From an uncultured Gammaproteobacteria bacterium (lineage in GTDB: Bacteria; Pseudomonadota; Gammaproteobacteria; Arenicellales; JAANXG01), in assembly GCA_947259955.1 (NCBI GenBank), contig CAMYOI010000003.1, positions 1-39,807 on the forward strand: 39,807 bases of DNA. The letters run 5' to 3'. How positions within the stretch are numbered: the stretch's first letter is position 1; each line of letters begins with the position of its first letter. Positions 7,555 through 25,556 of this stretch are shown piece after piece. The translations under genes were made by a program, and so were the position numbers. The notes below the pieces were generated by a model that ran no database searches, was not told where the DNA came from, and saw nothing but the letters and a program-made list of their open reading frames with translations.

Positions 7555-7593
7555 GGGCGGATACCGGACAGAACGGGCTAGCTCGGATTTGCG

Positions 7594-7869
7594 TCAGCGT
7601 ACACGGCCTGGTTCTGGGCCGAAAGTATTCTCGAATGCCAGGCCGATCCTGCGTTCCCCGGAATGGTTGCAACCCGAGGCATGCAGCAGCTTACCGTGGT
7701 GTAGTGACATCTGCCCCGGTGCGAGCTGTGCAAGAACGGCTTTGTTTTCGTCGATTTCCATGTCGGCCTCATCGGCACTCAAAACATCGACGGGTAAATA
7801 ATAGCCGTCGCTGTCGAATCTTTCGGAGATGTCTGGGTAATCGTGGGCTGCCTTGAAGGATTCGCTCAT
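7594..7869 (-). pseudogene. Internally deleted phytanoyl-CoA dioxygenase remnant
   Basis: N-terminal MSESFKAAHDYPDISERFDSDGYYLPVDVLSADEAD joined directly to the PhyH C-terminal DMEIDENKAVLAQLAPGQMSLHHGKLLHASGCNHSGERRIGLAF; the central HxD-bearing section is missing. Confidence 0.65.
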
Positions 7870-8039
7870 TCCAATATCCTCACTTGAAGCGATTTCGCTC
7901 TGTCGGGGTAGGGTGACTTTATCCACACCCGCACCCCAGGCGCAAGGCGCCTGGACCGGCTTTATGACGACTGGGCAAAGACCTGTGATGCCGACCTTTG
8001 GGCACCGGTGGAGAAGTCGCAAATCTTTATACGGGCTGC

Positions 8040-8924: not shown

Positions 8925-8953
8925 TTCTTGAATAATTCCCCAAGGTTGACCTC

Positions 8954-10120
8954 ATGATGTTCCGTTGTCGGCGCTTTCGTCAAGCCGGGGTGAATCGCAA
9001 GTCGTTCGCGTTTTGTTTCCTGGTTCTGCTCATGAGCGCCGTCCCTTGCGTTGCCCACGAAATCAATCCGGCCCTCGTTGATCTGTCTTTCCGGGAAGAC
9101 GGACGATATGACCTCACCGTGAAACTCAATCTAGAAGCGCTGATGGCGGAAATCGGGCCGGAGCATTCCGACACCGCGGAGTCCGCCAACAGCGCGAAGT
9201 ACGAGGCGTTGAGGGCGCGGCCGCCGGAGGAATTGCGCGATGAATTCGAGCGCTTCCGGAGTAGGTTCCTCAACGGCATCAGAGTGCGAGGGCAGAACGG
9301 TCAGATGCTGCAGCACGAAGTCAGTTCGGTCCTCTCCCCGGAGGTGGGCGACACCGACCTGGCGCGTATTTCGACAATCGTTCTTGAATCCACGGCACGG
9401 GTTAACGGTGACCGTATCGTCTGGTCGTGGGACGGACTATTCGGCGCGAACATCATTCGCGTCGTCGGGCCGGAAGGGCAAGACAGCTATTCGGCGTACC
9501 TGACGGACGGTGCGCCGAGTGATCCGATCCCCGTCACCGGCGGGCCGCAACAGGGCATGGCGGCGGTAATCGCCAATTATCTCAAAATCGGGTTTACTCA
9601 TATCCTGCCCCTGGGTCTGGATCACATCCTGTTCGTCGTCGGTCTGTTTTTGTTGAGCACCGCCCTGCGTCCCCTGATCCTGCAGGTTACGAGCTTCACC
9701 GTAGCCCACACCATCACGCTCGCTTTGGGTTTCCTGGATATTGTTCAAATCCCGGCATCGATCGTCGAACCGCTGATTGCCGCGTCGATCGTATACGTGT
9801 GCATTGAAAACATCATGACCGACGAACTCCACAAATGGCGCACGGTGGTGGTGTTCTGCTTCGGCCTGTTGCACGGGCTGGGCTTTGCCGGCGTGCTTTC
9901 GGATGTCGGGGTGTCGTCCACATACTTCATAACGGCGCTGCTGGCGTTCAATATCGGGGTGGAGTTGGGACAGCTCGCGGTGATTGCCGGCTGTTTCGTT
10001 GTTTTCGGCTGGTTTCGCCACCAGCCCTGGTACCGGGCCGTGGTTACAATCCCGGCTTCGGCGGTGATTGGCCTGATTGGCGCGTACTGGTTCGTTCAGA
10101 GAATCTCACTGGCGCTGTAA
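8954..10120 (+). CDS. HupE/UreJ family membrane protein
   Basis: C-terminal GFTHILPLGLDHILFVVGLFLLST...TSFTVAHTITLALGF and HGLGFAGVL motifs. Confidence 0.85.
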   Translation: MMFRCRRFRQAGVNRKSFAFCFLVLLMSAVPCVAHEINPALVDLSFREDGRYDLTVKLNLEALMAEIGPEHSDTAESANSAKYEALRARPPEELRDEFERFRSRFLNGIRVRGQNGQMLQHEVSSVLSPEVGDTDLARISTIVLESTARVNGDRIVWSWDGLFGANIIRVVGPEGQDSYSAYLTDGAPSDPIPVTGGPQQGMAAVIANYLKIGFTHILPLGLDHILFVVGLFLLSTALRPLILQVTSFTVAHTITLALGFLDIVQIPASIVEPLIAASIVYVCIENIMTDELHKWRTVVVFCFGLLHGLGFAGVLSDVGVSSTYFITALLAFNIGVELGQLAVIAGCFVVFGWFRHQPWYRAVVTIPASAVIGLIGAYWFVQRISLAL

Positions 10121-10405
10121 GGTGATCAACCCGCATTTCTCAACACCAAAACAACCGTGCAATGGCACCAGGGTATGATCATCCGGGGCCGTGAAGCGCA
10201 TCTGATCCGGAGTTCGTTCTGCCAAGTTGAAGTGCCGGAGATCCCCCGCGGCGCCTCGTTCTTCGTGCAACAAGCCGGCCCGGAGCGCTTGGTTGGCGCC
10301 CAAAGCTTGCATGAAAATATGCAGGGGAGGGGTTACGCCCGGCGTGACCGGCAGTGTAAGCTCAGCACCGCTTAACAATCATATCTAAAAGAGAGAGAAC
10401 CAGTC

Positions 10406-11038
10406 ATGATGCTGATCGATTTTCTGTTCCGCTGGGGACACGTGCTGTTTGGGATTACCTGGATCGGATTGCTCTACTATTTCAATTTCGTCCAGGGAGA
10501 ATACTTCAAAGAGGCGACCGCGGATGCGAAGGCGGACGCCACCAAAAAACTCGCACCGCGAGCGCTGTGGTGGTTTCGATGGGGCGCCATGTTCACATTC
10601 CTGACGGGCCTTTATCTGTACGGAATGTTGGGCGGCGGGTTCAACCAGTACATCACCCTGGGCGCGCTCATGGGAACTTTTATGTTTCTTAACGTCTGGT
10701 TGATCATCTGGCCAAACCAGAAAATCGTGTGCGGACTGGTGGAGGGCGACGCGGCGGCCGCGGGTCCCAAGGCGCTACTGGCCTCTCGAACCAACACGCT
10801 GTTTTCCGCCCCCATGTTGTTTGGTATGCTGGGCTCCAAACACGGCACCTATTCGATGTCCGGTCTTGAGGGTGTCAGTCTCGGCGATGCTGGATTCATG
10901 ATCGCGTTACTTGCTATCCTGGCCCTGGAGGCAAATGCCATATTTGGCAAGCTGGGTCCGATCGCGACCGTAAAGGGGGTCATCCATTCCAGTCTGGTGC
11001 TGACCATCGTGTTGTTCGGGATCGTTCACTTTCTCTAG
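10406..11038 (+). CDS. PuuD-like (urate hydroxylase N-terminal/DUF989-type) membrane protein, without a cytochrome c domain
   Basis: MMLIDFLFRWGHVLFGITWIGLLYYFNFVQ...LAPRALWWFRWGAMFTFLTGLYL; 210 aa. Confidence 0.75.
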   Translation: MMLIDFLFRWGHVLFGITWIGLLYYFNFVQGEYFKEATADAKADATKKLAPRALWWFRWGAMFTFLTGLYLYGMLGGGFNQYITLGALMGTFMFLNVWLIIWPNQKIVCGLVEGDAAAAGPKALLASRTNTLFSAPMLFGMLGSKHGTYSMSGLEGVSLGDAGFMIALLAILALEANAIFGKLGPIATVKGVIHSSLVLTIVLFGIVHFL

Positions 11039-11118
11039 CAGGCTAGCCTGCATATAACGGGCTGGACGTGTTCAAAGCCGACCGCGTGGCATTCGGGAAA
11101 GAACCCGATCTAATACTG

Positions 11119-12198
11119 TTACTCGGTGGTACGCGTCTGAGGCGTGGATCTCTGCGCCCGCCGATAGCGCTGGGGACTCATCCCGGTCCAGTTGCGGAAT
11201 GCGCGAGAAAACGCCGACAACTCGGAGTATCCGAGAAGCAGCGCAACCTCGGTCAGCGGCATGTCCGAGTCCTTGATGTAGTGCAGCGACAGCTCCTGTC
11301 TGGCGGCGCGGACCAGGTCTTGAAACGACAGCCCGTGTGCGTTCAGTTCGTTTTGAAACCGGCATTCGGAAATGCCAAACAGACGGGCGATCTGTGACAG
11401 GCTGGGCGGGGTAGTGCTGAGGTTCAATTTGATCTGATTGCGAACGATGGAAGCGAAGGTCTCAGGGTTGTCGTGAAGCTCGCAGCGAGACCTCAGAAAC
11501 GGTTCGATGATGGAAAAAAGGTATGGGTCCTGGTCGGGCATTCGAGCGTCCAGATCGCTGCGCCTGAAAGCCATGGCATTGGTGCGCCGGCCGAACAGCA
11601 CGGGTGCGCCGAAAACGTTCTCGTGTTCCGAATCGAATTGCGGCGCAGGGTGCTCGAAACGGATCTCGAGTGGTGACCAGTCCTTGCCAAGAGCGCTGCG
11701 GAACACATTCAAAAACATCCCCATCGACAGCTCGGCATCCTGTCTGCGGTCGCTGATGCGCGGATCATAGATCCTGTAGCTGAGCCAGAGAATGTCGCCG
11801 TCCTGGATGAGACTGAAGCTAGACTGTTCCTGGTGCGCCGGAAAATAAGTCTCCATGTTGCGCAGCGCGGCGGACAGCGTCGGGGAGCTGATTGCGGCGT
11901 AGCCGATGGCACCCAGCTTTTTGGGTTCGAACTGTGCGCCGAAGTGAAGACCGAAATTGTCATTGCCGGTTTGCCGGGCAGCCTCGGTGAACAGCTGGCA
12001 GAACTGTTGCAGGCTGATCTCCCGTATTGGACTGCCGAGATCCTCGACACTGAGCGCGGTAGAGCCGAAGATCGAATCGACATCACCATGATTTAGCTCG
12101 ATCATATCGGCCACACCCGTTGCGGCTGACGCAAGTACTTTCGACGGCTCTGCAATAGTGTTCATATCGCCGCTGCTTGGCAGTTGCTTTCGATTCAA
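11119..12198 (-). CDS. AraC family transcriptional regulator
   Basis: C-terminal HTH: ISECRFQNELNAHGLSFQDLVRAARQELSLHYIKDSDMPLTEVALLLGYSELSAFSRAFRNWTGMSPQRYRR; divergent from the ABC/BMC gene cluster. Confidence 0.93.
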   Translation of the reverse strand: MNRKQLPSSGDMNTIAEPSKVLASAATGVADMIELNHGDVDSIFGSTALSVEDLGSPIREISLQQFCQLFTEAARQTGNDNFGLHFGAQFEPKKLGAIGYAAISSPTLSAALRNMETYFPAHQEQSSFSLIQDGDILWLSYRIYDPRISDRRQDAELSMGMFLNVFRSALGKDWSPLEIRFEHPAPQFDSEHENVFGAPVLFGRRTNAMAFRRSDLDARMPDQDPYLFSIIEPFLRSRCELHDNPETFASIVRNQIKLNLSTTPPSLSQIARLFGISECRFQNELNAHGLSFQDLVRAARQELSLHYIKDSDMPLTEVALLLGYSELSAFSRAFRNWTGMSPQRYRRAQRSTPQTRTTE

Positions 12199-12312
12199 CC
12201 TGCTCCGAGCGGCATAGCGCCGCCCACGTCACAGGCTTGAAGCGGTCAGAATGTCTTAATATTCACCCGAAATCAACCGGCGCGGCGGCGATAACCCGGG
12301 ACTTGGACGGGC

Positions 12313-12345
12313 AAATGCTGTCAAATTCGACAGAAAAGCTGTCAA
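12313..12345. promoter_or_regulatory. Putative AraC-type operator: direct repeat AAA(T/A)GCTGTCAA at 21-bp spacing, plus CTGTC-N6-GACAG
   Basis: aaatgctgtcaa (12313-12324) and aaaagctgtcaa (12334-12345); overlapping inverted repeat ctgtcaaattcgacag (12318-12333), in the regulator/transporter intergenic region. Confidence 0.55.
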
Positions 12346-12432
12346 GCGGGGTTGCAATAAAGCGGGCAAACTCAATAATGGGCCGGTAAAAGAAGATAAA
12401 TCTTAACAGCCATACCAAACAGGAGGATACAG

Positions 12433-13566
12433 ATGAAGCTTACCCGGAGACAATTCAATAAGACCGCAGCCGCCACCGTTGGCGTGGCCGCAATGAGCCC
12501 GCTTCACCGGGCCCTGGCAGATCGCAATGATCAGATGAACATACTGTGTTGGGAAGGGTACAACTCGGACGAAGTGCTGGGTCCTTTCCGCGATGCGAAC
12601 TCCGGTGCCACGGTGCGGGCGGAGAGTGGAACGTCTGATCCGGACATGATCAACAAGCTCCGTGCAGGTGAAGTCAACGTATGGGACCTGATCAATGTGA
12701 ACCAGCCCTGGGCAAGTGCACAGCTGTATCCCGAAAAATTGATTAAGCCGCTCAACAAGGACCGGTTCATGCCTTATTTCGAAAGGATGCTGCCGGAATT
12801 TTCGGGTCCATATCCCCTGGCCTTCGCCGACGATGGTGAACTCATCGGCATGCCGCAGCGGTATGGTCCGTTCAGCTTCGTGGTCAATACGGACAAGATA
12901 AGCCGGGGCATGGCGGAAGATCAGGGTTGGAAACTGTTTCTGGATCCCGGCCTGAACCAGCGTTACGGTATCCTCACTTATGACAACTGGAACATCATGC
13001 ACATGTGCCTGACCGGCGACCAGAATCCTTTCGACCCGATGGACGACGCCGGACTGGAGACATTCAAGGGCACGGCGGAAGCCGTTTTTGCGGGCGCCAA
13101 GCTGCTGACGGACGACCTGGTGGCCATGAACACCGCGCTGATCAACGGGGAAATCGACGCTTATTTCACTGGGGGCACCTATACCGCTTCTCCCGCCCGC
13201 CTGGATGGCGCGACCAATATCCGGGGAATTACGCCGAATTCCGGTCCGGTCGACGGCAAGGGCGGCGTAGTCTGGATCGAACTCACATCGGCCGTAAACA
13301 ATCCCGACCCGTCGATACTGGCGGAGGATTTCCTCGAATTCGTGCAGGACCCCGAAATCTGCAAGGCGGTGAGCTTTGCGGAGGGTACTTACAACCCCGT
13401 GAGCCAGATGGGCGATTCGAAGGTGTTTGCCCAGTACGACGAAGATGAACTCGATGCAATACAGTGGGACAGCCTCGGCGAAGAGATGGCGCGATCGCTG
13501 GATTATCAGGTCGTTGCCTCCTACGACAAGCTGAACGAGATCTACAACGCTGCCAAGCGGGGTTGA
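12433..13566 (+). CDS. ABC transporter substrate-binding protein, PotD-like, with twin-arginine signal
   Basis: MKLTRRQFNKTAAATVGVAAMSPLHRALA; NILCWEGYNSDEVLGPF typical of polyamine-type SBPs. Confidence 0.9.
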   Translation: MKLTRRQFNKTAAATVGVAAMSPLHRALADRNDQMNILCWEGYNSDEVLGPFRDANSGATVRAESGTSDPDMINKLRAGEVNVWDLINVNQPWASAQLYPEKLIKPLNKDRFMPYFERMLPEFSGPYPLAFADDGELIGMPQRYGPFSFVVNTDKISRGMAEDQGWKLFLDPGLNQRYGILTYDNWNIMHMCLTGDQNPFDPMDDAGLETFKGTAEAVFAGAKLLTDDLVAMNTALINGEIDAYFTGGTYTASPARLDGATNIRGITPNSGPVDGKGGVVWIELTSAVNNPDPSILAEDFLEFVQDPEICKAVSFAEGTYNPVSQMGDSKVFAQYDEDELDAIQWDSLGEEMARSLDYQVVASYDKLNEIYNAAKRG

Positions 13567-13645
13567 TACGCTCCCAGGCTCTCCCGGCCGGGCAGCACGA
13601 TGCCCGGTCGGGGACGCCTAAAGCCTGCTCAATAATCTTTCTCCC

Positions 13646-14731
13646 ATGCCGCCGGAACCGATCCTTCGCCTTGAAAATATCGTCAAGCGCTTCGGCGCCT
13701 TTACGGCGCTACACCATATTGATCTGGAAATCGATGAAGGCGAGTTTCTGACCATAGTCGGGCCGTCCGGTTGCGGTAAAACCACCCTGATCCGGCTGCT
13801 GGTTGGAATCGATGAACCGACAGAAGGCCGCATCTGGTTGCGCGACAAGCGCATAGAAAAAGTGCCTGCAAATCTGCGACCGACCTGCATGGTGTTTCAG
13901 TCGTTGGCGCTGTTTCCGCACCGTTCCGTGGGAGAAAACATAGAATTTCCATTGAAGATTCGCGGTGAGACTGCGTCTCGGCGCAAGGAACGGGCGCTAG
14001 AGCTGCTCGACCTGCTTCATTTGCCCCACGATTTCTATGACAAAAGGATCAACCAGTGCTCGGGCGGAGAGCGCCAGCGGATTGCGCTGGCACGGGCGTT
14101 GGCGTTCGATCCGGAAATCCTGTTCTTCGACGAACCGCTTTCAGCACTGGATTTCCGCTTGCGCAAAAAACTGGAAAAGGAACTCAAGGATCTTCACGAG
14201 CGCACGGGCAAAACCTTCGTGTACATTACCCACAGCCTGGAAGAGGCGATGGTCATGTCAGACCGAATCGCCATCATGAGACAGGGGCGCTTCGAGCAGA
14301 TCGCCGTGACGGACGAGATTTATGCGCGTCCGATCACCCGGTTCGTGGCCGAGTTCATGGGAGAGGTGAATCTGTTCGACGTGGAGGGAACGGCTTCGGG
14401 CGGCCTGCGCGGGCATGGTGTGGAAATACACATCGACGCCGCGGGTGAAACTGTGGATCTTACTTTAGCGCAGGGGACGCAGGGCGCCCTGATGGTGCGT
14501 CCGGAGTCGGTGCGATTTCTCGACCCGGGCCAAACCGCGGATTTTGTCGTGCGAGGGATCCTGCGCGCGTACTACGCGCTTGGTTCCCGCACGCAGTACA
14601 AGGTCGAATCCTCCGAGGGAATCGAACTCGCGGTGGAAAAGCTCAGGCAGGACCGGTTTATGGGAAACGTGGGGGACGAGGTCGTGCTGGGTTTCGATAT
14701 GCAGAACACGCATATGATCAGGGAGCGCTAG
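13646..14731 (+). CDS. ABC transporter ATP-binding protein, PotA-like
   Basis: Walker A GPSGCGKTT; signature CSGGERQRIALARAL; Walker B EILFFDEPLSALD; TOBE-like C-terminus. Confidence 0.95.
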   Translation: MPPEPILRLENIVKRFGAFTALHHIDLEIDEGEFLTIVGPSGCGKTTLIRLLVGIDEPTEGRIWLRDKRIEKVPANLRPTCMVFQSLALFPHRSVGENIEFPLKIRGETASRRKERALELLDLLHLPHDFYDKRINQCSGGERQRIALARALAFDPEILFFDEPLSALDFRLRKKLEKELKDLHERTGKTFVYITHSLEEAMVMSDRIAIMRQGRFEQIAVTDEIYARPITRFVAEFMGEVNLFDVEGTASGGLRGHGVEIHIDAAGETVDLTLAQGTQGALMVRPESVRFLDPGQTADFVVRGILRAYYALGSRTQYKVESSEGIELAVEKLRQDRFMGNVGDEVVLGFDMQNTHMIRER

Positions 14732-14735
14732 CGGT

Positions 14736-15590
14736 TTGGAACGATCAGACCGCAAAATCGGCTTTCTGAGCGCCGTTCCGATCACCGTGATCCTGATGCT
14801 CAGCTTCACGGCGCCCCTGCTGGTGGTGCTGCTGTTTTCCGTGATGCCTCAGAAGGTGTTTACCCTTGCTCATGTGCCGGACTTTTCGTCCTACGGCGTG
14901 CTCTTCAGCCAGGGCTACTACCGGTCCCTGCTCTGGTCCCTTGGCACGGCGCTGGCGGCAACGGTCCTGTTGTTTCTGATTTGCTGGCCGCTGGCTTTTG
15001 CCATGGCCAAGGTGTTCAAGGGATTCACTCTGTTCATTACCGTCGCCGTGGTAATCACCCTTTTCGTGTCCGAGAATATCAGGTTGTTCGGTTGGGTTCT
15101 TACCCTGATGAAGGGGGGGCTGATCGAAGGGTATCTCCGGGCGTGGGTGGGTTGGAGTTTCGAAGGCGCGCTCTACAACGTTCCCGTGATCATCTTCGGA
15201 CTGGTTTACGTCTATTTTCCCTTCATGCTGTTTCCTCTGGTCCAGGGGATTTCAATGGTCCCGGATGACGCGCGCCAGGCGGCGGCGGACCTGGGCGCAA
15301 CGAGGCGGCAGATATTCTGGGAAGTCGATCTGCCGCTGTCGGCGCCGGGTATCGTCATCGGATCGCTGCTGACATTCGTGTTGGGTGCGGGGGCACTGGC
15401 CGAATCCAAGCTGCTCGGCGGTCAGGCGGTTATCGTCATCGCCGATGAGATCGAAACGGCTTTCACCTACGGTCAGAACTGGCCTTTGGGATCGGCGTTA
15501 TCGATCATACTTATCTTTATTATCGGGTCTTTGGCGGTGTTCGGGGTCAGCCGGGTGGATCTGGACAAGATTATGGGCAGGCGGCGCTGA
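14736..15590 (+). CDS. ABC transporter permease, PotB-like
   Basis: EAA-like loop DDARQAAADLGATRRQIFWEVDLPLSAPGI; 6 TM. Confidence 0.92.
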   Translation: MERSDRKIGFLSAVPITVILMLSFTAPLLVVLLFSVMPQKVFTLAHVPDFSSYGVLFSQGYYRSLLWSLGTALAATVLLFLICWPLAFAMAKVFKGFTLFITVAVVITLFVSENIRLFGWVLTLMKGGLIEGYLRAWVGWSFEGALYNVPVIIFGLVYVYFPFMLFPLVQGISMVPDDARQAAADLGATRRQIFWEVDLPLSAPGIVIGSLLTFVLGAGALAESKLLGGQAVIVIADEIETAFTYGQNWPLGSALSIILIFIIGSLAVFGVSRVDLDKIMGRRR

Positions 15591-16402
15591 TGCGGATCGG
15601 CCGAGCGACACGGATTGCACTCTATCTCTATGGCATTCTTGTCATAGCGTTTCTGTATCTTCCTCTCCTGTCAGTGGGGTTTGCTTCGGTGTCCAAGGCG
15701 CGGTACCTGACATTTCCCATAAAACGCTACGCTTTTCAGTGGTACGGCAAGGCGCTGGAGAGCCACACCGTCCAGGATCTGCTGTGGACGTCGTTGAGCA
15801 TTGCCGGCATCGTGACCGTGATCAGCATGATCGTCGGTTTTTTCGGTGCTTTGGCGTTTGCCAGGTATCAGTGGCGTTTTCGCGGCGTGTTCCAGAAGCT
15901 CATCCTGTTGCCCATTTTTTTTCCCCAGGCCGTCCTTGGGCTGGCCTTGTTGATGTGGTTCAACTCGATTGGCATCATTCCGGACTGGAAGACGGCGGTG
16001 GTGGCTCATCTCGTCTGGATATCGCCGATTGCGACGCTGGTCATCGCAATTCGTGCGTACAGTTTTGATCCCGCGCTTGAAGAGGCCGCCCGCGACATGG
16101 GAGCCTCGACCTGGGTGGTATTGAAGGAGGTAACCGGACCGTTGCTGATGCCGGGTGTGGTTTCGGCGGGATTGTTTTCATTCCTGTTGAGCTGGGGAAA
16201 CTTCCCTTTGTCATTGTTCACAACCGGGGCCGATTCAACATTGCCGGAATGGCTTTATGCCAAGATGGTGTCGGGTTATTCCCCGCTGGTGCCCACCGTG
16301 GGCATACTTTCCATCGCGACGTCGATGATACTTCTGATCGTCGCGTTTACTATTTACTGGTTCGTCCGCTCGGCGCGCGAAAGGCGTGCGCGGACCATTT
16401 GA
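15590..16402 (+). CDS. ABC transporter permease, PotC-like
   Basis: EAA-like loop DPALEEAARDMGASTWVVLKEVTGPLLMPGV; start overlaps the stop of the preceding permease by 1 nt. Confidence 0.92.
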   Translation: MRIGRATRIALYLYGILVIAFLYLPLLSVGFASVSKARYLTFPIKRYAFQWYGKALESHTVQDLLWTSLSIAGIVTVISMIVGFFGALAFARYQWRFRGVFQKLILLPIFFPQAVLGLALLMWFNSIGIIPDWKTAVVAHLVWISPIATLVIAIRAYSFDPALEEAARDMGASTWVVLKEVTGPLLMPGVVSAGLFSFLLSWGNFPLSLFTTGADSTLPEWLYAKMVSGYSPLVPTVGILSIATSMILLIVAFTIYWFVRSARERRARTI

Positions 16403-16424
16403 CTACAATTCCGGAGGTGCTGAT

Positions 16425-17204
16425 ATGTTGACATCCATCAAGGATCGTTCGGTCATCGTTACCGGCGGTTCCAAAGGTATAGGTAAGGGCATCGCCCAGG
16501 TGTTTGCCGCGCAGGGGGCGAAGGTCATGATCGCCGCGCGGGGCGAAGTGGCCGGCGCCGCCGCCGCCGCCGAATTACGGGCGGCCGGTGGAACGGCGGA
16601 TTTCTGCCGGTGCGACGTCTCCGACTGGGACTCGGTGCAGCACCTTGTGGACAGGACGGTTGACGCTTTCGGCGGACTCAACGTCATGTGTGCGAACGCC
16701 GGGGCCTTTCCCCAGACCAAAATGATCGATATGGATCCCGAGGAGTGGGACGAGGTCATGGCCACTAATCTCAAGAGCGCTTTTCTGTGCGTCAAGGCCT
16801 GTATCCCGCAGTTCGAGAAAGCGGGCGGAGGCCGAGTAGTCTTGACGTCTTCCATTACCGGTCCGGTTACGGGTTATCCCGGTTGGTCGCACTACGGTGC
16901 ATCGAAATCCGGACAGCTGGGTTTTTTGAAAACCGCGTGCATGGAACTGTCCAAATACAACGTAACCATCAACGCGGTGATGCCGGGCAACATCTACACC
17001 GAGGGGCTGAAGGATCTGGGCCAGGATTATCTGGACAGCATGGCGGCCTCAATTCCGCTCAAGCGGCTCGGCGACGTCAAGGATATTGGCAACGCCGCAC
17101 TGTTCTTCGCCTCTGACGAAGCGGGGTACATCACCGGCCAGACCATTGTTGTCGATGGCGGCCAGATCATACCCGAGTCACTGGAAGCCATCGAGGAAAT
17201 CTGA
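16425..17204 (+). CDS. SDR-family dehydrogenase (candidate 1-amino-2-propanol dehydrogenase-like)
   Basis: VTGGSKGIGKGIA cofactor motif, catalytic S/YxxxK (HYGASKSGQLGF), VVDGGQIIPES; ATG at 16425 with ggagg SD. Substrate is an inference from context. Confidence 0.88.
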   Translation: MLTSIKDRSVIVTGGSKGIGKGIAQVFAAQGAKVMIAARGEVAGAAAAAELRAAGGTADFCRCDVSDWDSVQHLVDRTVDAFGGLNVMCANAGAFPQTKMIDMDPEEWDEVMATNLKSAFLCVKACIPQFEKAGGGRVVLTSSITGPVTGYPGWSHYGASKSGQLGFLKTACMELSKYNVTINAVMPGNIYTEGLKDLGQDYLDSMAASIPLKRLGDVKDIGNAALFFASDEAGYITGQTIVVDGGQIIPESLEAIEEI

Positions 17205-17236
17205 CTTGATCCCGAATCGTTAGCCAGGATACGACA

Positions 17237-18244
17237 ATGCCAGACAGTGCCACGCCCTACGATGTCTTGATAGAGCGCCTGGGCGTTCTCGCCAATCAGT
17301 CCCTCGGGCTATGGGACTTGCCGGAGGGCGCAACGGCGCGCCTGATCAACGTATCGGAAAATGCCACCTACCTCGTCGAGGCTCCGAACGGGTTCAAATC
17401 GATTCTTCGAGTGCACCGTGAGGACTATCACACACGCAACGCAATCAGTTGCGAGCACGCCTGGTCCAAAGCGCTCGACGAAGAGGGCGGGGTCCACACT
17501 CCGGATATTCTTCCGGGCCGTGACGGCAGCGGCATCCAGACCGCTTCAGTGGATGGTTTAGCCGGCGAACGCCATATGGCCATGTTCGAGTTCCTCGAAG
17601 GCGAACATCCCGAAGAGGACGCGGACCACCTGGTGGAGTCGTTCGAGGAATTGGGCGAGATAGCGGCACGGACGCACAATCATTCCGTGGCATGGATGCG
17701 CCCGGCCAATTTCGAACGGCTCGTTTGGGACCTTGACACCGTATTCGGTCCGCGGGCGTACTGGGGTGACTGGCGAGATGCGCCCGGGGTAACGGAGCAG
17801 ACAAAAACGCTGCTCGAGCGGCTTCAATCCATCGTCGTACGGCGCTTGACCGAATTTGGCAAAGGGGCTGAGCGATTCGGCCTGATCCACGCCGACATGC
17901 GGCTGGCCAACCTGATCATCAGTGACGGAACAACCAGGCTCATCGACTTCGATGATTGCGGGCTGGGTTGGTTCATGTATGACTTCGCTGCCGGGATCAG
18001 CTTCATGGAAGACCATCCACAGATACCCAATCTCAAGGGCGCGTGGGTCCGCGGTTACAGAAAAGTTCGCGGGCTGAGCGCCGCAGACGAAGATGAGATC
18101 GATACCTTCGTCATGCTGCGCCGCCTGGCCCTGCTGGCCTGGATAGGCTCCCATATCGAGGTCGATACGGCAAAGGAGCTTGCGCCCGCATTCGCACCCG
18201 TAACGGCGGCGTTGGCGGAAATCTATCTTTCACATCAGGAATGA
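17237..18244 (+). CDS. APH-family phosphotransferase (candidate amino-alcohol kinase)
   Basis: Catalytic loop LIHADMRLANLI and metal-binding RLIDFDDCGLGW. Confidence 0.88.
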   Translation: MPDSATPYDVLIERLGVLANQSLGLWDLPEGATARLINVSENATYLVEAPNGFKSILRVHREDYHTRNAISCEHAWSKALDEEGGVHTPDILPGRDGSGIQTASVDGLAGERHMAMFEFLEGEHPEEDADHLVESFEELGEIAARTHNHSVAWMRPANFERLVWDLDTVFGPRAYWGDWRDAPGVTEQTKTLLERLQSIVVRRLTEFGKGAERFGLIHADMRLANLIISDGTTRLIDFDDCGLGWFMYDFAAGISFMEDHPQIPNLKGAWVRGYRKVRGLSAADEDEIDTFVMLRRLALLAWIGSHIEVDTAKELAPAFAPVTAALAEIYLSHQE

Positions 18245-18486
18245 GCGAGCGCTGGCGAGCGCTTCGACTACCGATGTCAATTCGCCGCAGTTAGTGTCAA
18301 GTTTTAGAGCCGCGCCTGTGCCACGCTAGATCTCGGAATGCATCGAGGCGGCGCCGTTCGCGGTCACGTCACTTCATCCTTTGTCAAGCCGTGACCATGC
18401 AGCGGCACCTGCCGCAAAGTGCCTTTGACGTTGTCAGGCCGCATCGATGCCGCCGCGTACTGGGTAATGAACCGGGAGGCAACACC

Positions 18487-19758
18487 ATGAGCGAAGCAAA
18501 ACTCGAATTCCTCGATCGATCGAGGGCATTCTGGAATCCCGGAAAGACACAGGATTGGCAGGACATGGGCGTCGATCTCGTGATTGACCGGCGGGAGGGA
18601 TACTACCTGTTCGATATGGATGGACGGCGCCTTATCGACCTGCATTTGAACGGAGGCACGTACAATCTGGGCCACCGGAATCCTGAACTGGTGGAGGCGC
18701 TGAAGGCCGGCAGTGCCCGCTTCGATATGGGTAATCACCATTTCCCCGCACTTGCCCGCACCGCGCTGGCCGAAGCGCTCGCGGCCTGCGCACCGGCACC
18801 GAATATGGTGTATACCGCGTACGGCTCGGGTGGTGGTGAAGCCATCGATATTGCCATCAAGACCGCTCGCCACGCCAAGCAAAGACGCAAGATCGTGTCC
18901 ATCGTCAAGGCCTACCACGGGCACACGGGTCTGGCGCTAAAAACCGGCGACGACCGGTTTTCCAAACTGTTTCTCTCAGAGGATACGCTGGGTGAGTTCG
19001 TGCAGGTCCCGTTCAACGACCTCAATGCCATGGAAGATGCCCTGCGCGGGCGGGATGTCGCAGCCGTAATCATGGAAACCATCCCCGCAACCTACGGTTT
19101 TCCGATGCCGCAGGAGGGTTATCTGCCCAATGTGAAGATGCTCTGCGAAAAGTACGATGCCCTGTACATTGCCGACGAGGTTCAGACCGGCCTGATGCGA
19201 TGCGGTGAGCTCTGGGCATGCACGAAATACGGCATCGAGCCGGACATCATGGTGACGGGCAAGGGCATCGGCGGCGGCATGTATCCGATCGCCTGCACCT
19301 GTATCGGTGAGCATTGCGGCGGCTGGCTGACGGAAGATGGATTCGGCCACATCTCCACCGGCGGCGGCGCCGAACTCGGTTGCATCGTGGCGATGAAAGT
19401 CCTCGAGATCGTGCAGCGCCCGGAAGTTAGGACCATGGTTCGATACGTTTCCGACTACATGCGCGCGGGGCTGGACCGGATCATGACCGAGTACCCCGAC
19501 TTCTTCATCGGGATCCGTCAGCACGGCGTAGTGATGGGCCTCGAGTTCAATCACGAGCAGGGAGCAAAACCGGTGATGAAACACCTTTACGACAACGGCG
19601 TCTGGGCTATTTTTTCGACCCTCGATCCACGCGTGCTGCAGTTCAAGCCCGGTCTGCTCATGACCCAGGCCGATTGTGAGGAAGTATTGCGGCGGGTCGA
19701 AATCGGCATCGGTCTCGCCCGGGATGAAGTCATGGGCTCCCACAGGAGGAGCGCCTGA
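18487..19758 (+). CDS. Class-III aminotransferase-fold PLP enzyme (candidate amino-alcohol-phosphate phospho-lyase)
   Basis: IADEVQTGLMRCG and PLP-lysine VTGKGIGGGMYP; ATG at 18487 preceded by gggagg. Confidence 0.88.
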   Translation: MSEAKLEFLDRSRAFWNPGKTQDWQDMGVDLVIDRREGYYLFDMDGRRLIDLHLNGGTYNLGHRNPELVEALKAGSARFDMGNHHFPALARTALAEALAACAPAPNMVYTAYGSGGGEAIDIAIKTARHAKQRRKIVSIVKAYHGHTGLALKTGDDRFSKLFLSEDTLGEFVQVPFNDLNAMEDALRGRDVAAVIMETIPATYGFPMPQEGYLPNVKMLCEKYDALYIADEVQTGLMRCGELWACTKYGIEPDIMVTGKGIGGGMYPIACTCIGEHCGGWLTEDGFGHISTGGGAELGCIVAMKVLEIVQRPEVRTMVRYVSDYMRAGLDRIMTEYPDFFIGIRQHGVVMGLEFNHEQGAKPVMKHLYDNGVWAIFSTLDPRVLQFKPGLLMTQADCEEVLRRVEIGIGLARDEVMGSHRRSA

Positions 19759-21329
19759 TGGAACCCCAAGCGAGGACCCTGGTCGACATATCGGGCAGCC
19801 ACGCCGCGCTGGCGGGACACGCCGACATGGTGCTGGAAAGGGCGCGCTGGGCGGCGGAAGTTTTCCAGCGTTATGATCGTGAGTTGACCATGGCGATAGC
19901 CGATGCCGTTGCCGCGGCGGCACACGAGAACGCCGAAAGATTCGCCGACTGGGCGGTGCGGGAAACGGGATTCGGCGTTGCCGCACACAAGAAACTGAAG
20001 AACGAGTTGACGTCCCGGCCGCTGGTGGATTTTTATCGAAACGACGATTACGTCAATCCGCGCATCGACGAGGCGCGAAAGATCGTCGAGATCCCCCGGC
20101 CCGCCGGCGTGATCCTGGCGCTTACTCCTTCGACCAACCCCATAGCCACGCTCAACTACAAGGTCTTGATCTCGCTGATGACGCGCAACGCGATCGTTAT
20201 CAGCCCGCATCCGGCGGCGCGCGAATGCAGCGTCGATGCGGCCCACGCACTCGGCGAGGCCGCGACGGATGCGGGCGCCCCCGACGGCGCCGTCCAGATC
20301 ATAGAGAATCCCGGCATTCCTCTAGTCGAAGAACTCATGGTGTCGCCCAAGACCTCGGTGATCCTCGCCACCGGCGGCACGGCGATGGTGCGTTCCGCCT
20401 ACTCCTCGTCGAATCCGGCAATTGGCGTCGGACCCGGCAACGCACCGGTGTTCGTTGATTCGACCGCGGACGTCGACAAGGCGGCAAAGCGTATCGTGGA
20501 GTCGAAATCTTTCGACAACTCGGCGTTGTGTACGAACGAGAGCGTCCTGATTACCCTGGAAGATGTCGATGCGCGCTTGCGCCGTTCGTTCAAGCAGGCA
20601 AAGGCTTACATTTGCGACGCCGACGACGTCGACCGCTTGCGACGGTATCTGTTTCACGATCGTGGATTCAATATCGAATGCATTGGTCGGGATGCCGCGT
20701 GGATTGCACAGGAATGCGGTATCCGTGTACCCGACGGCACGCTGGTTCTGCTGGCGCCGATTTCGCAGATTGGCGTTGAGGAGCCGCTTTCGAGGGAGAA
20801 ACTGTGTCCGGTGCTTGCCTATCATGTGGTCAAGCGCCGCAACCAGGCGATCACGCAGGCTCGCGCGGTGCTGCGCCTTGCCGGCGCCGGCCACTCTGCC
20901 GCCGTGCACGCCATGGACGAGCAGGTGGCGATGGCATTTGCGTCCGCGGTGGAGGCTTATCGGGTCGTCGTGAATGCCCCCTGTACCCAGGGCGCCGCCG
21001 GTTTTCAGACCGCGCTGGCGCCTACTTTCACCGTGGGCACCGGATTTTACGGCCGCAGTTCAATTGGCGAGAATATCGGGCCAGGACACCTCGTGCACTG
21101 GACTCGCCTGGCCTATAACTCGGATGCGTCTGAATCTTTCGGCAACTACCGCGGCTTGAGCCCGGGTTTCAGCGGCCCGCTGCCCGAAGCGCCCTCCGAC
21201 GGTGTGCCGGGATCCAACGGATACCGGGCGAGACGCGCCGAAGCCGATGCCAGTGTTTTTTCCGGCGTAACGCGTGAGGAGTTGCGGCGCATGATTGCCG
21301 AAGAACTTCGCGCGGTGCTGAGGAAGTAG
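19758..21329 (+). CDS. CoA-acylating aldehyde dehydrogenase (PduP/EutE class) with C-terminal encapsulation-peptide-like helix
   Basis: Catalytic Cys region SFDNSALCTNESVL; PAGVILALTPSTNPIATLNYK; C-terminal linker plus VTREELRRMIAEELRAVLRK. Confidence 0.92.
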   Translation: MEPQARTLVDISGSHAALAGHADMVLERARWAAEVFQRYDRELTMAIADAVAAAAHENAERFADWAVRETGFGVAAHKKLKNELTSRPLVDFYRNDDYVNPRIDEARKIVEIPRPAGVILALTPSTNPIATLNYKVLISLMTRNAIVISPHPAARECSVDAAHALGEAATDAGAPDGAVQIIENPGIPLVEELMVSPKTSVILATGGTAMVRSAYSSSNPAIGVGPGNAPVFVDSTADVDKAAKRIVESKSFDNSALCTNESVLITLEDVDARLRRSFKQAKAYICDADDVDRLRRYLFHDRGFNIECIGRDAAWIAQECGIRVPDGTLVLLAPISQIGVEEPLSREKLCPVLAYHVVKRRNQAITQARAVLRLAGAGHSAAVHAMDEQVAMAFASAVEAYRVVVNAPCTQGAAGFQTALAPTFTVGTGFYGRSSIGENIGPGHLVHWTRLAYNSDASESFGNYRGLSPGFSGPLPEAPSDGVPGSNGYRARRAEADASVFSGVTREELRRMIAEELRAVLRK

Positions 21330-21338
21330 GCGGACAGC

Positions 21339-21950
21339 ATGGCGGAACTCCGTTCGTTCATTTTTATAGATCAGTTGCAGCCGCAGACGCTGGCTTATAT
21401 CGCGACCTGGATGCGGGGTTCATTGCCGCGTCGAAACATGGCCGCACAAATTATCGAGGTATCGCCCGGACTGGATATCGAGGCGCTGACCGATGTTGCA
21501 CTCAAGGGCGCCAACATCAAAGTCGGACTGCTCGTAGTCGAGCGCCAGTATGGGTACCTGGAGTTCCACTCCCGATCTACCGCCGAGGTCAAGGCCGGCG
21601 CGCAGGCCCTGCTGGATGCGCTGGGCGCGAGCGTCGAGGATGCCACGCCACCACAGATCCTCGGGTCCAAGGTCGTCACTCGCGTCGACCACCAGCATGC
21701 CTTTCTGATCAATCGCAACAAGCTTGGTTCCATGGTGCTTGGCAACGAGTCACTGTACCTGCTGGAGTGTCGTCCCGCGTCGTACGCCATCTTGGCCTGC
21801 AACGAGGCGGAGAAAGAAGCCAACATCAAAGTCATCGACTACCGAATGATCGGCGCCAACGGGCGGCTCTATCTCTCCGGTGACGAGGCTGAGATCCGAA
21901 ATGCGCGAGGCGTGGCCGAGGCTGTACTTCACAAAGGCGGGGTGGCCTAG
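21339..21950 (+). CDS. BMC-T shell protein (tandem BMC domain), paralogue 1
   Basis: Two BMC-like halves: AAQIIEVSPGLDIEALTDVALKGANIKVGLLVVERQYGYLEF and LLECRPASYAILACNEAEKEANIKVIDYRMIGANGRLYLSGDEAEIRNA. Confidence 0.9.
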   Translation: MAELRSFIFIDQLQPQTLAYIATWMRGSLPRRNMAAQIIEVSPGLDIEALTDVALKGANIKVGLLVVERQYGYLEFHSRSTAEVKAGAQALLDALGASVEDATPPQILGSKVVTRVDHQHAFLINRNKLGSMVLGNESLYLLECRPASYAILACNEAEKEANIKVIDYRMIGANGRLYLSGDEAEIRNARGVAEAVLHKGGVA

Positions 21951-21953
21951 CAA

Positions 21954-22403
21954 ATGGTCGACGAACTGCGCCAGGCGATCCGAAGCATTCTGCTCGAGGA
22001 GCTTGCGGTACATGGAGTCGGGCTGCCCCCGAAGTCGGCGCCGGGGATTCACGTCGAGGAAGTCGAGATCAATTCCGATGGAGACCTTGCACAATTCGTC
22101 CGACGCTTGCTGCAGCTCGCCCGCGACGGCGGCGCACTCTCGGCGATTGAATCGGGGCGCCACGTATTCAGGTTGCGCACAGTCAGTGCTCCGCAGCGGT
22201 CGATGCAACCGCCGGCGGAATCCAGTCGAACGCCGGCTGGCGGCACGATGACATTCGACGCGGGCCTCATCACTGAAAAACAGGTTCGCAATCTTCCTGA
22301 AAATATCTCAGTGGTAAAGGTGGGCGGCAGCGTGCGGCTCACGCCGCTGGCCAGCGATGCCATGCGGCGCGCGGGGATTAAAATAGAAAAGGTGACATCA
22401 TGA
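21954..22403 (+). CDS. Uncharacterised BMC-locus protein with N-terminal amphipathic helix and PduM-like C-terminal motif
   Basis: N-terminus MVDELRQAIRSILLEEL; Pro/Ser-rich linker; C-terminal ITEKQVRNLPENISVVKVGGSVRLTPLASDAMRRAGIKIEKV; ATGA overlap with the BMC-P gene. Confidence 0.65.
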   Translation: MVDELRQAIRSILLEELAVHGVGLPPKSAPGIHVEEVEINSDGDLAQFVRRLLQLARDGGALSAIESGRHVFRLRTVSAPQRSMQPPAESSRTPAGGTMTFDAGLITEKQVRNLPENISVVKVGGSVRLTPLASDAMRRAGIKIEKVTS

Positions 22404-22642
22404 TTCGTGGACGCATAACGGGCCGAATCTGGTCCAGCAAACACATCGAAACCCTGCCCAACGGGGCGCTTCTTGAAGTGACTCTCGATACCGGCGGCAG
22501 TCTGATCGCGCTGGATCCGCTCGGATGCGCCGAAGGTGAAGCCGTTCTCGTGACTCAGGGCTCGGTTGCCGCGGGCTACTTTACCAAGTCCAAAGCACCG
22601 ATAGATGCGCTGATTATCGGGTCTATCGATGAACAGGGCTGA
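22400..22642 (+). CDS. BMC-P pentameric vertex protein (EutN/CcmL family)
   Basis: 80 aa, MIRGRITGRIWSSKHIETLPNGALLEVTL...ALDPLGCAEGEAVLVTQGSVAAGYF. Confidence 0.93.
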   Translation: MIRGRITGRIWSSKHIETLPNGALLEVTLDTGGSLIALDPLGCAEGEAVLVTQGSVAAGYFTKSKAPIDALIIGSIDEQG

Positions 22643-22699
22643 GCCAGGCGCAGCTACATTGTCAACGGCCAACAGGCCACAACTTTAGGAGAACACAAC

Positions 22700-22984
22700 A
22701 TGTCGAATCAGGCTATCGGAATGATCGAGACCCGCGGCTACGTTCCGGCGCTGGCCAGCGCCGACGCGATGGTCAAAGCAGCCAATGTCGAAATCGTATC
22801 ACGCAATGAAGTCGGAGGCGGACTGGTATCCGTAGTGATCAAGGGCGACGTCGGAGCCGTCAAGGCGGCGACGGAAGCCGGCTCCGAGGCAGCCAATCAG
22901 GTTGGCGAAGTGGTCGCAGTACACGTTATTCCCAGGCCCCACCAGGACCTGAACCAGCATTTCAGTCTGGCGGCCGGCAAGTGA
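22700..22984 (+). CDS. BMC-H hexameric shell protein
   Basis: 94 aa, QAIGMIETRGYVPALASADAMVKAANVEIVSRNEVGGGLVSVVIKGDVGAVKAATEAG...VIPRPH; classic BMC fold signature. Confidence 0.97.
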   Translation: MSNQAIGMIETRGYVPALASADAMVKAANVEIVSRNEVGGGLVSVVIKGDVGAVKAATEAGSEAANQVGEVVAVHVIPRPHQDLNQHFSLAAGK

Positions 22985-23017
22985 CGCCGGGTTGGGTCGG
23001 GAGAGGCGGGTGCTGAC

Positions 23018-23647
23018 ATGACCGAGTTGAGGGTCTATCTGCCAATCCACGATCTGCAACCCCAGTTCTCCGCTTATCTGAGCACGCCGATGCGGGCCCG
23101 GGGATATCCGCCTTTCGAAGGACAGCACAGTCTGATCATCGAGGTGTCTCCAGCACTCGCCATACACCGAATATCAGACCTCGCCCTGAAGGCGGCGCCC
23201 GATATGGAACCGGGCATTCTGTTCACTGAAAGACAGTACGGATTGCTGGAACTGCATTCTTCGGATCGGGATGAGCTGGATGCGGCGGGCAAGGCGATCC
23301 TCAAGGGTATAGGCGCAAGTCCGGGAGACCAGCTCGCTCCCGCCATCCTGTTCGAAGACATCATCGAGAATTTGTCGGACCAGCACGCAATCATTTTGAA
23401 CCGCTCCCGCTCTGCCTCCATGCTGGTCCCGGGCTCGTCGCTGCTTCTTTACGAAATGAGCCCCGCGCTGTTCGCCTGTGTCGCTGCCAACGAGGCGGAA
23501 CGCGCTGCGCCCGCGGCGATCCTCAATGACGTTCAGATGATGGGGGTGTCAGGCCGCATCTTCATGTCCGGCGACACCGGTGACCTGACCAGGGCGCGGG
23601 ATGCCATAATGCGGACGCTGAAAGCGGTTAAGGGACGCAAACAATGA
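23018..23647 (+). CDS. BMC-T shell protein (tandem BMC domain), paralogue 2
   Basis: Co-linear with paralogue 1: LIIEVSPALAIHRISDLALKAAPDMEPGILFTERQYGLLELH and LLYEMSPALFACVAANEAERAAPAAILNDVQMMGVSGRIFMSGD. Confidence 0.87.
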   Translation: MTELRVYLPIHDLQPQFSAYLSTPMRARGYPPFEGQHSLIIEVSPALAIHRISDLALKAAPDMEPGILFTERQYGLLELHSSDRDELDAAGKAILKGIGASPGDQLAPAILFEDIIENLSDQHAIILNRSRSASMLVPGSSLLLYEMSPALFACVAANEAERAAPAAILNDVQMMGVSGRIFMSGDTGDLTRARDAIMRTLKAVKGRKQ

Positions 23648-24318
23648 GCAACTGGAAAAACGCTTACAGGTCATTTTATTACGCGAACGCCGACGAGCCG
23701 GAAGACCCGGTACTGGCGCCGCGCGCGACCGCGCTGCTGGTGATCGATATTCAGAATACCTACATGGAGGTGCCCGATGATGCCGCCGAGGCGGCACGAT
23801 GGGCCCCGTTTTTTTCCAGGATGAATGACACGGTCATTCCCAATACGGCTGCGTTGATCGAATTATGCAGAGCAAGGAAAATCGAGGTCATCTTCGCGCG
23901 CATCGCTTGCCTTACGGAAGACGGCCGGGATCGGTCCCTGAGCCAGAAGAAACCCGGCTTCAATTACCTGTTGCTGCCCAAGGACCGGGAGGACAGCCAG
24001 CTTGTGCCCCAATTACAGCCCAGAGGCGACGAGATAGTCATTCTGAAGACCACGGACAGCGCTTTGACTGGTTCGAACCTGCGGTTGATCCTGAACAACA
24101 TGGGCATTCGAAACATCGTCTTGGCTGGTATTTTTACGGATCAATGCGTCAGCAGCACAGTGCGTAGTCTCGCTGACGAAAGCTTCAACGTGCTGGTGGT
24201 CGACGACTGCTGCGCCGCGGCCACGATGGAACTGCACGACCACGAACTGGAAATCATAAATATGATCTACTGTCACGTGGTTCAGTCCGAGGATATCCGG
24301 TCTTTCATCCGTAATTGA
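23644..24318 (+). CDS. Isochorismatase-fold cysteine hydrolase (amidohydrolase-like)
   Basis: Catalytic triad context: LLVIDIQNTYMEV (Asp), VILKTTDSAL (Lys), FTDQCVSSTVRSL (Cys); start overlaps the BMC-T stop (ATGA). Confidence 0.92.
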   Translation: MSNWKNAYRSFYYANADEPEDPVLAPRATALLVIDIQNTYMEVPDDAAEAARWAPFFSRMNDTVIPNTAALIELCRARKIEVIFARIACLTEDGRDRSLSQKKPGFNYLLLPKDREDSQLVPQLQPRGDEIVILKTTDSALTGSNLRLILNNMGIRNIVLAGIFTDQCVSSTVRSLADESFNVLVVDDCCAAATMELHDHELEIINMIYCHVVQSEDIRSFIRN

Positions 24319-24356
24319 TGGCAAAAGGGGAAAAGATCCGTTAAAACCATGCCGGC

Positions 24357-25556
24357 ATGCCACGCGCGGAAGCAAAAATCATCGGCCTTGTCAGCACAGG
24401 ACATTTTTTCAGCCATTTCTACCTGCTGCTGCTGCCGCCGCTGTTCCCTATTTTGCGCGACTATTATGGCGTCGGTTTTACCGAACTCGGTTTCGCACTG
24501 ACCGCCTACAGTATCGCGACGGCCTGTACCCAGGTCCCTGCAGGATATATCGTAGACCGCCATGGTGCACGAAGGCTGTTGATCGCCGGACTGCTGCTCG
24601 AATCTTTCGCCATCGCCGGCATCGGTTTGTTCAATACGTTCAACGCATTCATCGTGATGCTGGTGGTCGCCGGGGTAGCCAATTCCGTGTACCACCCCGC
24701 CGACTATTCGATACTGAACCGGGCGGTGGATAAATCGCGCATGGGCCGCGCATTTTCAATACATACGTTCGCCGGGTATCTTGGTGAAGCCGTCGCTCCA
24801 GTTACGATCCTTGCCCTCATGGTTTGGGTGGACTGGCACACGGCTCTGATCGTGTGCGGCATCGGAGGTGGTATCGCCACCGTATTCCTGGCGTTCAATT
24901 CCCCTTTGCTGGACGCCGCGCCGAATGCCGATGAATGTCCTCAGGCCGGCGCGAGCGGCGGCGGTCTGCGCTTGCTGATATCCCTGCCCATCGTCATGGG
25001 GCTGCTTTTTTTTATAGGCATATCCATCACCGGGCGCGGCATCACCGGTTTTGGCGTCAGCGCATTGACCGAACTCCACTCGATCTCCCTGGCCAGTGCG
25101 GGTGCCCTGTTGTCCTGCTATCTGTTCGCCATGCCCGTGGGTGTGTTGGTGGGAGGCTGGGTCGCGGACAGTACATCGCAGCACGGCCGCATGGCGGCCG
25201 TGTGCTTCATCGTGGTTTGTTTTGTCATGTTTGCCGTTGCCGCATTGCCGCTGCCGCCGGTAGTCATAGGGGTGCTGTTCGGAATCGCCGGTTTGTTTTC
25301 CGGAATGGTGGCGCCGTCGCGTGACATGCTGATACGTTCCATTACGCCGCCCAAAGAAACCGGTAAGGTGTTTGCATTTGTCTCCACCGGGTATAACATC
25401 GGCGGCATTCTGGGGCCTCCGTTGTTCGGGTATTTGCTCGATCACTACTCGCCCCGGTCACTGTTCTGGGTGGTCGGTGTGGCGGCCCTGATGACGATGC
25501 TGACCGTGATGTTTGCCGCCGGGCGGCACATACGTCCCGCGGCGGCGAATGGATGA
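24357..25556 (+). CDS. MFS transporter (fosmidomycin-resistance/Fsr-like)
   Basis: 12-TM type; STGHFFSHFYLLLLPPLFPILRDYYGVGFTELGF; AGYIVDRHGARR. Confidence 0.88.
   Translation: MPRAEAKIIGLVSTGHFFSHFYLLLLPPLFPILRDYYGVGFTELGFALTAYSIATACTQVPAGYIVDRHGARRLLIAGLLLESFAIAGIGLFNTFNAFIVMLVVAGVANSVYHPADYSILNRAVDKSRMGRAFSIHTFAGYLGEAVAPVTILALMVWVDWHTALIVCGIGGGIATVFLAFNSPLLDAAPNADECPQAGASGGGLRLLISLPIVMGLLFFIGISITGRGITGFGVSALTELHSISLASAGALLSCYLFAMPVGVLVGGWVADSTSQHGRMAAVCFIVVCFVMFAVAALPLPPVVIGVLFGIAGLFSGMVAPSRDMLIRSITPPKETGKVFAFVSTGYNIGGILGPPLFGYLLDHYSPRSLFWVVGVAALMTMLTVMFAAGRHIRPAAANG

Follow-up and report, generated by a model that had tools for sequence, protein, structure and literature searches.

A Rhodococcus/Mycobacterium-type microcompartment locus in an uncultured gammaproteobacterium and its predicted amino-alcohol catabolism

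We analyzed a stretch of 39,807 nucleotides from an uncultured gammaproteobacterium (GTDB Arenicellales, JAANXG01; GenBank assembly GCA_947259955.1, contig CAMYOI010000003.1), hereafter referred to as the window, which carries a bacterial microcompartment (BMC) locus of the Rhodococcus/Mycobacterium microcompartment (RMM) type. Searches of the open reading frames (ORFs) of the window with Pfam and NCBIfam profiles bore out all genes named in an earlier note on this DNA, as well as their order and strands, and the BMC-H, BMC-T and BMC-P profile search proposed in that note recovered the shell genes. The earlier note had placed the complete locus at positions 11119–25556. This placement holds for positions 11119–24318 but probably not for the last gene, which encodes a major facilitator superfamily (MFS) transporter (24357–25556); because this gene is common only to one near-identical locus (L003), the conserved locus ends at about position 24318. 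The genes are listed below.

11119–12198, minus strand: AraC-family regulator, divergent (Pfam Arabinose_bd, the AraC N-terminal domain, 2.5e-48; HTH_18)
12433–13566, plus strand: periplasmic solute-binding protein of PotD/PotF/YdcS fold, amine-type (Pfam SBP_bac_8; AlphaFold model)
13646–14731, plus strand: ATPase of an ATP-binding cassette (ABC) importer (Pfam ABC_tran 1.9e-32; TOBE_2)
14736–15590, plus strand: ABC importer permease 1 (Pfam BPD_transp_1)
15590–16402, plus strand: ABC importer permease 2 (Pfam BPD_transp_1 2.2e-11)
16425–17204, plus strand: short-chain dehydrogenase/reductase (SDR), probable 1-amino-2-propanol/aminoacetone dehydrogenase (Pfam SDR; best PDB match 6ci8/6ci9, 305 bits)
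17237–18244, plus strand: predicted amino-alcohol kinase of APH fold (Pfam APH; PDB 6ef6, 284 bits; catalytic motifs)
18484–19758, plus strand: class-III pyridoxal phosphate (PLP) enzyme, probable amino-alcohol-phosphate phospho-lyase (Pfam Aminotran_3 7.6e-71)
19758–21329, plus strand: acylating aldehyde dehydrogenase (AldDH) with C-terminal encapsulation peptide (Pfam Aldedh; match to the R. jostii RHA1 RMM1 enzyme; tree)
21339–21950, plus strand: BMC-T(dp) shell trimer 1 (Pfam BMC; PDB 5l39, MSM0275, 281 bits)
21954–22403, plus strand: RMM core protein of 149 amino acids (aa) with an encapsulation-peptide-like N-terminal helix (in 50 of 50 long relatives, defined below)
22400–22642, plus strand: BMC-P vertex pentamer (Pfam EutN_CcmL 9.3e-18; PDB 5l37, MSM0273)
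22700–22984, plus strand: BMC-H hexamer (Pfam BMC 4.2e-27; PDB 5l38, MSM0272)
23018–23647, plus strand: BMC-T(dp) shell trimer 2 (PDB 5suh, MSM0271, 276 bits)
23644–24318, plus strand: isochorismatase-fold cysteine hydrolase (amidohydrolase) (Pfam Isochorismatase 1e-34)
24357–25556, plus strand: MFS transporter, probably outside the conserved locus (Pfam MFS_1; only in near-identical L003)

Comparison with homologues placed the start of the PLP gene at 18484, not 18391, and moved that of the SDR gene inward to 16425. The 149-aa gene at 21954–22403, missing from the earlier gene list, is part of the core. The product of 23018–23647 had no Pfam match, yet it matched the NCBIfam CcmP model (3.2e-53) and PDB 5suh (1.9e-81) and by these comparisons is clearly a BMC-T protein. 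Catalytic motifs were unbroken in the AldDH (Cys258), the kinase (HADMRLAN and DFDDCG), the PLP enzyme (Lys260) and the hydrolase (TDQCVSST), and the BMC-H protein contained the motifs KAAN and PRPH. The source genome bin comprises 6.08 Mb in 831 contigs (91% complete, 7.5% contaminated). A binning accident is unlikely for the locus, since it recurs in a second bin (L003) at 96.7% DNA identity and its BMC-T was also present in two of three congeners examined.

In a PDB search, all four shell proteins had an RMM shell protein of Mycobacterium smegmatis as their best natural solved relative. This was MSM0275 for the first BMC-T (5l39; 281 bits, next 161), MSM0271 for the second (5suh; 276 bits, next 143) and MSM0273 for BMC-P (5l37; 79 bits, next 25), while MSM0272 was the top natural single-domain match of BMC-H (5l38; 128 bits), for which a tandem-fusion construct scored higher. 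The M. smegmatis locus numbers 0275, 0273, 0272 and 0271 parallel the order of the shell genes in the window, and the gap in this series corresponds to the position of the 149-aa gene. RMM1 of Rhodococcus jostii RHA1 (L083) has the same order of BMC-T, an unknown protein of about 145 aa, BMC-P, BMC-H and BMC-T. Judged by homology and gene order, the locus is of the RMM type. An affinity to carboxysomes was rejected, as the NCBIfam CcmP matches were below cut-off and RMM shells scored far higher. We also rejected, as having next to no probability, an identity with the already characterized ethanolamine (EUT) or propanediol (PDU) utilization metabolosomes. These have AldDH and shell folds in common with the locus, but its shell proteins match RMM best, EutB was not found in the source genome (E. 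coli control positive), and no diol dehydratase was found with a protein query in the source genome G000 or the congeners G399 and G401 (control G274 positive). The protein query replaced a PF02286 profile search of the source genome, for which the control had remained silent. Profile searches confined to the locus detected no encoded phosphotransacylase (PTAC) or alcohol dehydrogenase (AlcDH), as in RMM.

To place the locus among its relatives, the first BMC-T was scanned across 85,462 species genomes. Related BMC-T occurred at 224 places, and the best 80 of these, which were examined further, belonged almost exclusively to Alpha- and Gammaproteobacteria. In a phylum sample, BMC-T was present in 3 of 399 genomes, including the source genome. 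Gene counts given for long relatives refer to the 50 loci with at least 18 kb of sequence; genes of the relatives were called by codon usage, as longest-ORF calling gave antisense artifacts. The AldDH, PLP enzyme, BMC-H and 149-aa protein were encoded in all 50 long relatives, and the full set of ABC importer, SDR and kinase in 41 of them. The core kept the order PLP enzyme, AldDH, BMC-T, 149-aa protein, BMC-P, BMC-H and BMC-T. A module of importer, SDR and kinase, in some cases with hydrolase or dehydratase, was situated upstream, downstream or inverted relative to this core. As the gene order is kept across dozens of genomes, the arrangement is not due to chance. Diol dehydratase genes were found in 13 of the best 80 relatives (13 of the 50 long ones).

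The module also occurs without a shell. On plasmid At of A. fabrum C58 (L090), a shell-less module resembles that of the window in its importer, SDR, kinase and hydrolase (47–62% identical) and differs in having a PLP enzyme of the PRK06148/9 type. In another shell-less module (L102), an APC-type permease, identified by ORF reading, replaces the ABC importer. Three further loci (L046, L049 and L068) combine the RMM core with an alternative substrate module of a sugar-type ABC importer, an amidase and two choline-kinase-like proteins.

The earlier note had suggested that the ABC importer, the second BMC-T and the cysteine hydrolase may set the locus apart as a distinct subtype. This suggestion was not supported. 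Two BMC-T genes are ordinary for RMM, as both M. smegmatis (MSM0275 and MSM0271) and RHA1 RMM1 possess two, and importer and hydrolase recur in dozens of relatives. Given the 224 related places and the importer, SDR and kinase set shared by most long relatives, the locus is, by sequence comparison, a member of RMM and not a new type or subtype.

RMM1 and RMM2 were defined by Axen et al. in 2014, RMM2 with a diol dehydratase and neither type with PTAC or AlcDH, and their ancillary genes include a GntR regulator and an amino-acid permease (PMC4207490). The window locus has an AraC regulator and an ABC importer instead of the latter two, and, unlike in RMM2, no diol dehydratase genes were found. 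It has the shell set, AldDH, kinase and SDR in common with the RMM of M. smegmatis and Rhodococcus (AAUM/Aut). The shell genes also follow one order, interrupted between BMC-T and BMC-P by an unknown gene. In place of AraC and the ABC importer of the window, R. jostii RMM1 has a GntR regulator and an annotated ethanolamine permease. Ravcheev et al. (2019) reported the Aut BMC from Actinobacteria, Firmicutes and Proteobacteria, with proteobacterial clusters lacking the kinase (PMC6620236), and Paracoccus yeei TT13, which is listed as RMM2, grows on 1,2-propanediol (PMC8156839). In the 2021 catalogue by Sutter et al., RMM2 has Epsilonproteobacterial and Marinimicrobial outliers with integrases of PF13356/PF00589 (PMC8217296). 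Our loci L020 (Sulfurimonas) and L018 (Marinimicrobia), which share an integrase gene, appear to be these two phylum outliers; PF13356/PF00589 were confirmed on L019, which has the same gene cluster. Through L018 and L020, the window locus probably falls inside the catalogued RMM2, though it lacks the dehydratase. L018, L019 and L020 represent the same locus, mostly at 97.3–99.9% DNA identity, with one segment at 88.7%. The bins that carry them are classified as Marinimicrobia, Gammaproteobacteria and Sulfurimonas, respectively. Phage-borne transfer is the 2021 catalogue's reading of such cases; mis-binning would also explain the cross-phylum identity.

Like the shell proteins, the AldDH, kinase and SDR match RMM proteins best. 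The best plasmid match of the AldDH was the RHA1 RMM1 enzyme (406 vs 285 bits). In an AldDH tree, a check suggested in the earlier note, RHA1 RMM1 was nested among the relatives of the window (clade support 98/97), AldDHs from the BMC loci L084, L119, L122 and L123 fell outside this clade, and RHA1 and L103 formed long branches. The catalytic cysteine aligned with that of acetaldehyde dehydrogenases. The best PDB match of the kinase was 6ef6 (284 bits, runner-up 51), which we take to be the (S)-1-amino-2-propanol kinase of M. smegmatis, and the SDR was closest to 6ci8/6ci9 (305 bits), presumably the M. smegmatis RMM dehydrogenase, at a modest margin to the runner-up 3rih (290 bits). By these matches, the window has a predicted APH-type aminopropanol kinase and a probable aminopropanol dehydrogenase, as RMM do. 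The kinase domain is also related to that of the PRK06148/PRK06149 fusion proteins, which show the same pairing of kinase and PLP enzyme. Homology thus supports the earlier prediction for this DNA of an amino-alcohol metabolosome similar to RMM and equipped with a kinase, a PLP enzyme and an acylating AldDH.

An encapsulation motif was built from the AldDH C-terminus and scored on the ends of the locus proteins. It scored high in 80 of 81 AldDHs, as expected by construction, and the 149-aa proteins had moderate N-terminal scores; it was not detected at the ends of the kinase, SDR, hydrolase and dehydratase. AlphaFold modeled the 149-aa protein as an N-terminal helix and two small domains, with no PDB fold match at E ≤ 0.001, and 21 of 51 homologues had a weak match to PF15953 (PDU_like). 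RHA1 contains an exact duplication of 1,686 bp (11912–13597 and 15805–17490 of L083), by which the PLP gene has the same 3′ tail as the AldDH gene. Unless this duplication is an assembly artifact, the RHA1 PLP enzyme would be tagged through the duplicated AldDH tail.

Based on gene content and order, homology, intact motifs and the encapsulation-peptide-like ends of the AldDH and the 149-aa protein, we consider it fairly probable that the locus encodes an RMM catabolic metabolosome converting an amino alcohol to propionyl-CoA. The PotD-like importer would take up a compound with an amine group; the best candidate is 1-amino-2-propanol or one of its amides, from which the cysteine hydrolase may release the amino alcohol. 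The SDR would interconvert aminoacetone and 1-amino-2-propanol, in whichever direction, and the kinase would form the O-phosphate. From this the PLP enzyme, possibly located at or inside the shell, would eliminate phosphate and ammonia to give propanal, which the encapsulated CoA-acylating AldDH would oxidize to propionyl-CoA within the BMC-H/P/T shell. Propanal is preferred over acetaldehyde because of the diol dehydratase in sister loci, which in the 13 relatives would yield propanal from 1,2-propanediol. If ethanolamine were the physiological substrate, kinase and phospho-lyase would instead deliver acetaldehyde for conversion to acetyl-CoA. We regard this as quite unlikely: the AldDH does score highest against acetaldehyde dehydrogenases, choline/ethanolamine-kinase-like genes occur in three relatives, and a gene annotated as ethanolamine permease lies near R. 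jostii RMM1, but the kinase is closest to the M. smegmatis kinase, the SDR is conserved beside it, and the dehydratase-bearing relatives suggest propanal. For the propanal route, the coenzyme B12 independence claimed in the earlier note stands for the entry reactions, in view of the EutB and diol dehydratase searches described above. It may not extend to the whole route, which need not be B12-free because propionyl-CoA may enter the path through methylmalonyl-CoA mutase, an enzyme of a B12-dependent family, homologues of which are present in the source genome.

Several points weigh against the proposed pathway. The PLP enzyme of the window is only 24% identical to that of R. jostii RMM1 and scores highest against putrescine and ornithine transaminases; the encapsulation motif was not detected at its ends; and glycerol or ethylene glycol can likewise serve as substrates of diol dehydratases. 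The low identity reflects two families. The first comprises the PLP enzymes of RHA1 RMM1, A. fabrum and Acinetobacter/Chimaeribacter (RHA1 to the others 46–49%); matches to the PRK06148/9 kinase-PLP fusions were obtained for the RHA1 and A. fabrum enzymes. The window PLP domain does not match these fusions and is 24–25% identical to the first family; by sequence it belongs to another class-III family than the R. jostii RMM1 enzyme. Members of this second family were found in Phyllobacterium (57%) and Mesorhizobium (56%), adjoining a gene of the alkaline-phosphatase family (a type I phosphodiesterase in Phyllobacterium), and in Pseudomonas MPC6 (50%) and the shell-less L102 (59%), adjoining a kinase. 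Two shell-less clusters (L091 and L092) consist of a peptide ABC importer, a phosphodiesterase and a PLP enzyme of the window type, and their substrate is perhaps a phosphodiester such as glycerophosphoethanolamine.

If the PLP enzyme were a true transaminase, 1-amino-2-propanol would be converted to lactaldehyde and by the AldDH to lactyl-CoA, with the kinase acting later. This is the Aut scenario published by Ravcheev et al. in 2019 (PMC6620236), and the nearest characterized PLP families are indeed transaminases. Still, we consider it unlikely. In 48 of the 50 long loci, the PLP enzyme is paired with a kinase of the APH or choline-kinase type, and the kinase of the window is homologous to the presumed (S)-1-amino-2-propanol kinase. 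Shell-less PLP relatives adjoin a kinase (L093, L102) or a type I phosphodiesterase (L091), as would be expected if the substrate is phosphorylated. Moreover, every second-family enzyme in which the motif VLQFKPG was found has Gln at a position occupied by Arg in putrescine aminotransferase. In ornithine aminotransferase, the equivalent Arg binds the substrate carboxylate. The loss of this Arg, together with the kinase or phosphodiesterase neighbors, favors a phospho-lyase, and the PLP enzyme is probably an amino-alcohol-phosphate phospho-lyase.

The solute-binding protein is unusually conserved (mean column identity 79% across 29 relatives). Its AlphaFold model was closest to YdcS and PotD, and this fold makes an amine ligand likely; a phmmer search against the PDB found no solved relative. 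Regulators varied among the 50 long relatives, with AraC kept in 29 and a DeoR gene in 18. The cysteine hydrolase, present in 28 of these 50, is 60% identical in the shell-less A. fabrum module and 65% in L102, and on this evidence accompanies the catabolic module in shell-less settings as well. This distribution bears on a refinement compatible with the phospho-lyase pathway, in which the imported compound is an N-acyl, carbamoyl or glutamyl amide that is first opened by the cysteine hydrolase, or by the amidase in L046, L049 and L068. The amidase of these alternative modules and an extra S58 peptidase in the A. fabrum module are in line with it, but 22 of the 50 long relatives lack the hydrolase, and its scores against the NCBIfam biuret amidohydrolase and RutB models are far under the cut-off; we see the refinement as possible, though not as the expected case. 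Still more tentative is the composite picture that the proteobacterial RMM independently recruited a non-orthologous PLP phospho-lyase, receives an amide-linked amino alcohol via importer and cysteine hydrolase, and tags only the AldDH and the 149-aa protein.

Two genomes from a single genus have an RMM-like shell and an acylating AldDH directly downstream of a TauD-family enzyme (L103, G338:C44:105500-125400, positions 7246–12133; L121, G581). The taurine-dioxygenase-like enzyme has a C-terminal extension, an aliphatic-sulfonate-type importer is encoded nearby, and PLP enzyme, kinase and SDR are missing; these loci possibly encode a sulfonate metabolosome. Upstream of the locus in the window (8954–11038), a HupE/UreJ-like membrane protein and a membrane protein with a urate-oxidase N-domain are encoded, with no evident link to it.

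RMM, named from Actinobacteria, is among the few metabolosome types for which an entry independent of B12 has been proposed, and the window contains a well-preserved member of a family that is common in marine and soil proteobacteria. Relatives occur in the cultured hosts Dongia, Stappia, Fodinicurvata and Roseovarius, and the locus of Fodinicurvata fenggangensis includes the hydrolase. The family appears as a mobile two-module system, with an invariant core of shell, AldDH and PLP enzyme and a movable module of importer, SDR, kinase and hydrolase that also occurs without a shell, in which the use of 1-amino-2-propanol and 1,2-propanediol would be linked through a common aldehyde, propanal.

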